Shown here: piece after piece, positions 39,273 to 41,312 of the stretch
How positions within the stretch are numbered: the stretch's first letter is position 1
Layout: the number at the start of each line of letters is the position of its first letter
Source of the DNA: Actinomycetaceae bacterium
GTDB lineage: Bacteria; Actinomycetota; Actinomycetes; Actinomycetales; Actinomycetaceae
NCBI GenBank assembly: GCA_017934115.1
Contig: JAGBKC010000022.1
Location: forward strand, 1-46,318
Reading direction: 5' to 3'
DNA: 46,318 bases
Position numbers and translations under genes: made by a program
The notes under the pieces: model-generated
Seen by the model: only the letters and a program-made list of their open reading frames with translations
Told to the model about the DNA's origin: nothing
Databases searched by the model: none

Positions 39273-39719
39273 ATGCATTGCCCTTTTTGTCGTAATGGTA
39301 ATTCTCGCGTTATTGATTCTCGTGTGAGTGATGATGGTCAGAGTATTCGTCGCCGTCGTGAGTGCACTCAATGTAAACGGCGTTTTACGACTACAGAAAC
39401 TGCTGCTTTGCTTGTGGTAAAACGGTCAGGCGTTACTGAGCCGTTTTTGAGAGATAAAATTATTTCTGGTGTGAGAAAGGCGTGTCAAGGGCGTCCTGTT
39501 CATGAGGATGATTTACTTTTATTGGCGCAAAAAGTTGAAGAAACGGTGCGTGAACAGGGGAATTCTCAGATAGAAGCCCACGATATTGGTTTGGCTATTT
39601 TAGAACCGTTGAGATCCTTGGATAAAATCGCTTATTTGCGTTTTGCGTCGGTGTATTCGAATTATGATTCTTTAGAAGATTTTGAAAAGGCGATAGAAGA
39701 TTTACGCCGCAACCCATAA
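39273..39719 (+). CDS. nrdR: Transcriptional repressor NrdR
   Basis: The 148-residue repressor of ribonucleotide reductase genes senses ATP and dATP. A zinc ribbon at the N-terminus has Cys3 and Cys6 (HCPFC) and Cys31 and Cys34 (CTQC), with the basic DNA-binding stretch [15 protein letters not shown]. An ATP-cone domain follows (about 47-137), with [16 protein letters not shown]. Length is standard. The start is ATG 39273; an in-frame GTG at 39267 is unlikely. The gene lies 37 bases after dinG but seems to have its own promoter. A GC-rich candidate structured RNA follows its stop codon. Confidence 0.95.
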
Positions 39720-39738
39720 TGTTAAATAGTTGAAGAGA

Positions 39739-39849
39739 ACATCGAGCCCGAGAGCGCCAGTCGGCGCGAAGGCCACTCGTAGTGGCAATAGTTGGAGCCC
39801 GGGGCTTTCATGGCCCGATGTCCATGGGAGTTATTCTATTATTTTTTTT
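39739..39849 (+). ncRNA. Candidate structured RNA downstream of nrdR (strand uncertain)
   Basis: A compact GC-rich island stands in AT-rich DNA with no gene from 39720 to 39915. An outer helix pairs 39739-39748 with 39812-39821 (6 bp, one A-C mismatch, then 3 bp). It encloses a perfect 5-bp hairpin 39754-39758/39763-39767 with loop AGTC and a second hairpin 39772-39776/39782-39786. A third, weaker hairpin is 39794-39798/39804-39808. A competing hairpin, CATGG (39809-39813) with CCATG (39822-39826), would break the outer helix. A T-rich tract follows to 39849. It matches no RNA family I can recall. It could be a small RNA, a complex terminator or a dispersed repeat. Confidence 0.45.
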
Positions 39850-39915
39850 CTTTCCTTGCTGAGGTTTTATGGGGAGTAAATGGGCGAACGTGCCTGGATA
39901 GAAAAGATGGTGTTA

Positions 39916-40608
39916 TTATTTTTCATTTGTTTCATGGGGAACATCAAAACGATACCCGACATTGCGCACGGTTGTGATAAGAGAATCGAGTTTTGGTCCC
40001 AACTTTGCGCGTAAACGGCGCACATGAACATCAACAGTTCGCGAACCTCCATAGTAATCAAAGCCCCACACATCCTGAAGTAATACATCGCGCGATATAA
40101 CGTGGCCTTGATGAGAGGCAAAATAATGAAGTAATTCAAATTCTCGATAGGTCAGGTCAAGGGCTCGCCCGTGCACATGAGCCGTAAAAGATACAGGGTC
40201 GATTGTGAGCGCATCGGCAATGGTGATACTTGTGTGTTCTTCTTCGAAGTGAAGAGCCATTCCTGGTGAGTGGAGAAGGTGAAGACGGGTTTGTAATTCT
40301 GTGGCTGATGTTTGAGGGGTAACGAAATCAGCAATACCCCAATCAGGTTCAATAATGCTTAAATTTTCTGCGTTAATGGCAAGAAGAAGGGGTGGAGGCG
40401 CTTGAAGAGTGCGTGTTGCGATATGGCAGATATCGCGGGCTGCTAAGAGGTTTGTTGTGCCGTCAATAATGAGCGCTGGGGCATGGGCAACATGTTTAAG
40501 GCTTTCAGTGGTCAGTGGAGCTTGTTCGATAGGCGTAGGCAAAAGTGAAATATTGGGAAGCACATGCGTTGATTGCATATTGGTAAGCATGGTGATGGGT
40601 CTGTGCAT
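39916..40608 (-). CDS. glnR: GlnR-type orphan response regulator of nitrogen metabolism
   Basis: The 230-residue protein has a divergent receiver domain (about 15-120), with VLPNISLLP, ALIIDGTTNLLAARDIC and PDWGIADFV. An OmpR-type winged helix follows, with LDLTYREFELLHYFASHQGH, VWGFDYYGGSRTVDVHVRRL and TVRNVGYRF. These patterns match actinobacterial GlnR, an unpaired regulator that switches nitrogen assimilation genes. Asp49 is retained in place of the phosphorylation site, although GlnR is not thought to depend on a partner kinase. AGGAGG sits directly before the ATG at 40608, settling the start over the internal ATG 18 bases on. A minus-strand -10 box TACAAT lies at 40658-40663. It is divergent from the nitrobindin-like gene. 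Confidence 0.88.
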   Translation of the reverse strand: MHRPITMLTNMQSTHVLPNISLLPTPIEQAPLTTESLKHVAHAPALIIDGTTNLLAARDICHIATRTLQAPPPLLLAINAENLSIIEPDWGIADFVTPQTSATELQTRLHLLHSPGMALHFEEEHTSITIADALTIDPVSFTAHVHGRALDLTYREFELLHYFASHQGHVISRDVLLQDVWGFDYYGGSRTVDVHVRRLRAKLGPKLDSLITTVRNVGYRFDVPHETNEK

Positions 40609-40736: not shown

Positions 40737-41312
40737 ATGGCTTTTCAATTTCCTGAAAATATTGTTCCTGAATGTTATCCCATGGCATGGCTTATTGGTT
40801 CGTGGAAAGGTGCCGGAGTGATGGAGTATGAAGGCATAGAAGCCCAAGGGTTTTTGCATGAACTTCATATTGATAATGACACTTTGGGGCCATATTTGCG
40901 TTTGCGATCAACAACATGGCTTATAGAAGAGGATGCAGGAATTATTGACAAGGAAATCTCTGGCGGTGCAATGTATGCCAAGCTCACCAAGAGTGATGTG
41001 TGGTCAGATTTTTCTGCTTATCTGCGCCCCAACCCTACAGTAGAAAAGCAAGGCGAAGCTACAGTCCTTGAAGGTATGTCGATTTCGCCATCAGGGTACA
41101 GTGCAACATGGGCAGGAATTATTCAAGGCCCACAAATTCATATGCAGGCTGATGCAATAGCGTGCACACCAAATTCTCCTGATTATCAAGGTGCTCGTAT
41201 TATGGGGGGATTAGTCGAATCAGATCTCTTTTTTGCTTATGATATGGCTGCTTTTGGTCAAGAGATGGCGACGTATATGTCAGGAAGACTCTCGCGAGCA
41301 GATCTCATGTAG
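40737..41312 (+). CDS. FABP-like/nitrobindin family protein
   Basis: The 191-residue beta-barrel protein belongs to the DUF1794 (THAP4/nitrobindin) family. It opens with PENIVPECYPMAWLIGSWKG, whose G-x-W-x-G pattern is the family signature. YLRLRSTTWLIEE is also characteristic. Nitrobindins bind heme through one histidine near the C-terminus and handle nitric oxide or peroxynitrite. Here the corresponding segment reads MATYMSGRLSRA, with Tyr180 where I expect the His, so heme binding is doubtful. The start is ATG 40737, which fits the family N-terminus; an earlier in-frame ATG at 40659 adds a hydrophobic stretch foreign to the family. The ygfZ gene follows after 14 bases. Confidence 0.8.
   Translation: MAFQFPENIVPECYPMAWLIGSWKGAGVMEYEGIEAQGFLHELHIDNDTLGPYLRLRSTTWLIEEDAGIIDKEISGGAMYAKLTKSDVWSDFSAYLRPNPTVEKQGEATVLEGMSISPSGYSATWAGIIQGPQIHMQADAIACTPNSPDYQGARIMGGLVESDLFFAYDMAAFGQEMATYMSGRLSRADLM

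Follow-up and report, generated by a model that had tools for sequence, protein, structure and literature searches.

A conserved structured RNA with a C-rich core encoded in Actinomycetaceae and other actinobacteria

A short intergenic stretch within 46,318 nt of DNA from an Actinomycetaceae bacterium (contig JAGBKC010000022.1; this whole stretch is called the window below) encodes a structured non-coding RNA, since compensatory base changes among its homologues go beyond those of the controls. The RNA is about 90 nt long, with three hairpins and a C-rich core of almost invariant sequence enclosed by an 11-bp outer helix, and is almost certainly the product of a real gene on the minus strand (Table 1). 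The probable ends of its transcript are about 39823-39826 (5') and about 39730-39738 (3'). The sequence-only reading of this region had described a GC-rich island in AT-rich DNA as a candidate folded RNA, with no known family recognised. The island is borne out by a GC content of 64% at 39739-39822 vs 43% in the window as a whole, only 0.3% of 84-nt windows being equally GC-rich. The folding z-score of the stretch was -2.3 on the plus and -3.1 on the minus strand, and at 1500 random 96-nt positions taken from either strand of the window, no fold was as good as that of the minus-strand RNA.

Table 1 Position of the RNA gene, its parts and its neighbours in the window.
Feature	Position	Strand	Remarks
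Small RNA gene	39731..39826	-	Covariance-model match: R1 102.4 bits, R2 91.4 bits
-10 element TAGAAT	39833..39838	-	TANNNT; same distance in 30/30 Actinomycetaceae-type loci
Outer helix P1, 5' strand	39812..39822	-	Partner 39738-39748; two-sided changes at all 11 pairs, 57 sequences
Outer helix P1, 3' strand	39738..39748	-	
Weak hairpin GCC-CCG-GGC	39797..39805	-	Within the invariant C-rich core
Invariant core strand CCCCGGGCUCCAA	39792..39804	-	Partly exposed; proposed contact site; columns invariant in alignment A3
Hairpin GCCACU-ACG-AGUGGC	39772..39786	-	Stem 39772-39777/39781-39786
Hairpin GCGCC-GACU-GGCGC	39754..39767	-	Stem 39754-39758/39763-39767
glnR-type regulator	39916..40608	-	Pfam GlnR_1st + Trans_reg_C; upstream same-strand neighbour, outside the RNA gene
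nrdR	39273..39719	+	TIGR00244, 160 bits; convergent neighbour of the RNA; adjacency not conserved

Structure, covariation and distribution

When 59 relatives were searched with the plain DNA sequence, nearly all of them gave a single strong match; the closest were 84-90% identical over 70-90 nt, and these best matches span different genera. Thirty homologues were aligned in one orientation and used to build covariance model R1. In this alignment, the interior is near-invariant (AAGCCCCGGGCUCCA - hairpin - hairpin) and the outer helix varies in sequence with its pairing kept. R1 detected further copies across the class, and a second model, R2, was built from 57 sequences. The search of relatives for covarying pairs had been suggested in the sequence-only reading, and it yielded both the homologues and the compensatory changes that establish a folded RNA. 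With the structure fixed beforehand, pairing was kept in 95.8% of the cells of the 57 sequences. Two-sided changes were found at 14 of 24 pairs, in 124 cells compared to 33 cells in shuffled alignments, and none of 500 shuffles scored as high; these shuffle controls take no account of relatedness, but double changes turn up repeatedly across many families. Every slid version of the structure scored far lower than the named one.

The outer helix (placed at 39739-39748/39812-39821 from the window sequence) and the two perfect hairpins of the sequence-only reading are all present, and the 11 pairs of the outer helix all covary. The hairpin at 39772..39786, or GCCGC hairpin, shows a C-G to U-A double change in 15 of 57 sequences and an A-U change in the window, and the loop of the hairpin at 39754..39767 is of the GNRA type (GAGA/GUGA/GCGA) in other lineages. 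The weaker third hairpin (39797-39799/39803-39805) is likewise present in the window, but it lacks covariation and one of its three pairs is lost in 16 of 57 sequences. A duplicated GAGCCCG motif (39744-39750, 39795-39801) does occur in the window; its proposed role as a switch, together with a competing hairpin, finds no parallel, as the window's is the only one of the 57 homologues with the second copy and the competing hairpin, which are thus accidents of its sequence. Over the 57 sequences, which come from many families, 23 columns are invariant, some of them in hairpin stems and loops. In the two inner hairpins the stems vary hardly more than the exposed strand does, and the CCG loop and the CCA of the core have computed unpaired probabilities of 0.8-0.9. 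An extra hairpin was noticed in families f97 and f107 (L183, L184, L190, L192; L187, L194, L195, L197), apparently between the -10 box and the outer helix, where the RNA seems to be extended at its 5' end.

With R2, the order to which the window belongs, Actinomycetales, gave matches in 293 of 297 genomes and 94 of 95 genera, nearly always to a single copy; the four negative genomes are two of 0.8-0.9 Mb from one genus and two incomplete assemblies. Of 148 genomes drawn from the class as a whole, 89 also carry it, as do 54 of 118 genomes of a Mycobacterium-like genus (this label and the label Streptomyces-like are inferred, partly from neighbouring genes). Owing to strict filters, all these counts are lower bounds. 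The window's own 1.46-Mb assembly (G000) holds a single copy, as do nearly all genomes, and both a known repeat family, named in the sequence-only reading as an outcome against its proposal, and a palindromic or REP-type repeat were dismissed by this copy number. Genomes of family f14 (e.g. G049, G470, G496) carry two to four copies. No plasmid-borne copies were found, and the sole 'phage' match, a record titled 'UNVERIFIED: Bacteriophage sp.' (L198; MT835541.1, 27665-33716) in which the RNA is followed by DUF47 and Pit, is apparently a mislabelled fragment of an actinobacterial chromosome. Matches of R1, the first model, outside the class were weak, and the two that were inspected (L139 and L140) lack the core.

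Strand, promoters and terminators

The sequence-only reading had implied a plus-strand RNA followed by a T tract, and here the homologues speak clearly against it. Read as minus strand, the 21 core pairs form in 96.5% of cases vs 88.6% when read as plus strand, a difference that arises from G-U in 98 cells and A-C in only 4 and that places the RNA on the minus strand. The positions of -10 boxes and terminators agree with this assignment. The T tract itself is real (about 39839-39850), but on the true strand it lies on the promoter side, as A-rich DNA adjoining the -10 box, and a plus-strand RNA with a T-tract terminator is ruled out by the G-U asymmetry together with the promoter position.

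All 30 Actinomycetaceae-type loci carry a TANNNT -10 box at near-constant distance upstream on the strand equivalent to minus; a good -35 box was not found in the window's own copy. In 21 of the 27 other loci, the -10 box is replaced or accompanied by the motif GGAA[T/C]-N14-19-GTT, which is expected about 0.003 times per 70-nt window. These loci belong to four families, nine of them to one genus, and the motif was found at none of the 30 Actinomycetaceae-type loci. We take GGAAT-N16-20-GTT to be the consensus of promoters read by SigR in Streptomyces and SigH in mycobacteria, ECF sigma factors of thiol-oxidative stress, and by this consensus match the promoters in question look like the SigR/SigH type. 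RsrA, the anti-sigma factor of SigR/SigH, was looked for in 50 genomes and detected in 48, most genomes with a TANNNT-type promoter among them. The presence of RsrA was thus rejected as an explanation of promoter type, which does not simply track the SigR system, because most genomes of both promoter classes have it. The window's own assembly yielded no RsrA-type anti-sigma factor, although two congeners carry one.

Strict terminators follow the RNA at 10 of 85 loci, compared to 1.5 expected and to 0 on the opposite strand. The window's copy shows no clear terminator; the U-rich UUCUCUUC follows its outer helix.

Genomic neighbours and possible modes of action

In the window, the RNA lies in the intergenic region between the convergent nrdR gene and a GlnR-type regulator, which in turn adjoins a THAP4/nitrobindin-like heme-binding protein (40740-41312) that recurs near the RNA in related genomes. 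Placement after nrdR, by which the sequence-only reading had located the element, turned out to be accidental, as nrdR is convergent here and was found beside the RNA in none of the loci L002-L030. At other loci, the genes that recur beside the RNA are glnR, an uncharacterised gene of about 200 residues (c4) and DUF47-pit. GlnR lies upstream on the same strand at 16 of 85 loci and DUF47 plus Pit downstream on the same strand at 23 of 85, and many Actinomycetaceae-type genomes show these arrangements. c4 is the commonest neighbour, lying upstream at 26 of 85 loci in several families and just upstream in L112-L122, L143, L145 and L177-L194; its protein has no Pfam or NCBIfam match and could be a functional partner of the RNA. 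In Streptomyces-like loci the RNA is flanked by genes for a UvrD-type helicase and a malic enzyme, and in Mycobacterium-like loci it adjoins a WhiB-family gene, which we take to be whiB6.

The orientation of the RNA relative to these neighbours is not fixed. In two Streptomyces-like genomes (L129 and L130) the helicase and malic enzyme genes are the same but the RNA between them points the other way, in L129 with both the GGAAT-GTT promoter and the downstream hairpin kept, and in three loci of family f19 (L118, L120, L122) it is inverted relative to c4. Inversion in two lineages points to a free-standing gene rather than a leader or terminator, and, since a leader or attenuator could not survive inversion, the RNA most likely acts in trans. 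A promoter of its own at fixed distance and its independence from flanking genes likewise indicate, as far as sequence comparison goes, a free-standing sRNA gene.

These observations bear on two explanations that dispense with such a gene. A conserved core within a covarying closing helix resembles an aptamer, and the 23 loci with DUF47 and Pit downstream could suggest a cis-acting leader or riboswitch that serves this phosphate transporter operon or some other gene downstream. However, the next downstream gene in the window is the convergent nrdR, a same-strand downstream gene is not universal, the genes downstream in Streptomyces- and Mycobacterium-like genomes are unrelated or antisense, and a terminator precedes DUF47 in several copies. 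Together with the inversions described above, which led us to reject a riboswitch of pit or malic enzyme, this makes a cis-acting leader improbable and, as a general function, largely refuted. Still more improbable, to the point of being hardly credible, is a bidirectional terminator or palindromic repeat devoid of RNA function: its stable hairpins and the position between convergent nrdR and glnR would fit, but the element occurs once per genome nearly everywhere, its best matches are 84-90% identical between genera, its promoter is conserved and the convergent setting is absent at most loci.

As for the function of a trans-acting RNA, two readings were rated about equal, with a narrow preference for pairing with mRNA. 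The near-invariant C-rich strand CCCCGGGCUCCAA would be held open by the 11-bp outer helix together with two rigid hairpins, and this exposed strand could pair in trans with G-rich segments of mRNAs, for instance ribosome-binding sites, in the manner of 6C RNA, which is thought to pair with segments of this kind. To our knowledge, no Hfq is known in actinobacteria. The invariant parts that are exposed, the CCG loop and the CCA, suggest that the RNA pairs with G-rich ribosome-binding sites, and by analogy with 6C RNA we tentatively favour this mode of action, at somewhat less than even odds. A conserved 12-nt complement of the core was not found elsewhere in 14 Actinomycetaceae genomes, where a perfect antisense target was discarded because, besides the gene itself, there were only a few scattered matches in three genomes; an mRNA target, if any, would therefore use a shorter seed.

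The absence of such a long complement also agrees with the second reading, according to which the RNA works by binding protein, as part of an RNP or by titrating a regulator (compare 6S/Ms1 and SRP RNA), and not as an antisense RNA. This possibility, to which we give slightly less credence, accommodates the 23 invariant columns with their hairpin stems and loops, the freely varying yet always paired outer helix and the near-universal single copy, and the near-invariant inner-hairpin stems suit it at least as well as they suit pairing; an exposed C-rich loop, on the other hand, is also typical of pairing sRNAs of the phylum. For the preferred pairing reading, the promoters suggest when the RNA would be available: under thiol-oxidative stress in the GGAAT-N-GTT lineages, and probably through the housekeeping sigma factor in the window's family.

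Taken as a whole, we lean towards regarding the RNA as a near-universal actinobacterial sRNA with its own fold, an overlooked family acting as an RNP or global post-transcriptional regulator whose control has switched between housekeeping and thiol-stress ECF sigma factors from lineage to lineage. RNAs with an invariant core in 99% of an order's genera are usually important to the cell. The promoter evidence ties the RNA to the thiol-oxidation response in several lineages, so that its function can be tested directly in standard laboratory strains, and its annotation is now possible with the covariance model.

Relation to known RNAs and regulons

The Rfam 15 scan, another check put forward in the sequence-only reading, returned only tRNAs elsewhere and nothing on the RNA when run on the window and the scanned homologous loci, both at gathering score and in E-value mode, and no model matched the RNA or the surrounding 18.5 kb in one Streptomyces-like genome. 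The RNA is thus absent from the reference catalogue though present in Actinomycetaceae and in Streptomyces- and Mycobacterium-like genomes.

It resembles 6C RNA in being a small actinobacterial RNA with exposed C-rich segments. Unlike 6C RNA, which PMC8388888 describes as two hairpins with six or more C per loop, it forms a closed multi-branch structure with one short C-rich strand, and the Rfam 6C model does not match it. With Ms1, which PMC9130861 relates to the 6S fold, it shares wide conservation in actinobacteria; it differs from Ms1, in a comparison made through Rfam models only, by its junction of about 90 nt, covarying closing helix and three hairpins. The GGAAT-N-GTT promoter in four families is a likeness to the SigR/SigH regulon, from which the TANNNT-type promoter of the window's family departs. 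In the SigR/SigH literature searched we found no sRNA of matching description, and a search for an sRNA beside whiB6 gave nothing specific.

A further RNA to compare is scr2952, an sRNA of S. coelicolor. Its namesake SCO2952 is a HelD-class helicase gene (PMC8655204) and SCO2951 is malic enzyme (PMC7494193), so its setting agrees with that of the Streptomyces-like loci. Judged by this identical order of helicase, RNA and malic enzyme, scr2952 is probably the Streptomyces copy of the present RNA. It is described as an Rfam entry in PMC8388888, whereas the present RNA has no Rfam 15 match. The literature searched on scr2952 gave nothing on spread beyond Streptomyces, structure or promoter, and within that literature the family as it occurs across actinobacteria seems to be undescribed, as do its structure and promoter classes. 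According to PMC8388888, scr2952 was found by RNA-seq with its expression confirmed (Vockenhuber et al. 2011, cited therein) and is conserved in over half of the Streptomyces tested; if it is the present RNA, expression is already established in one genus.
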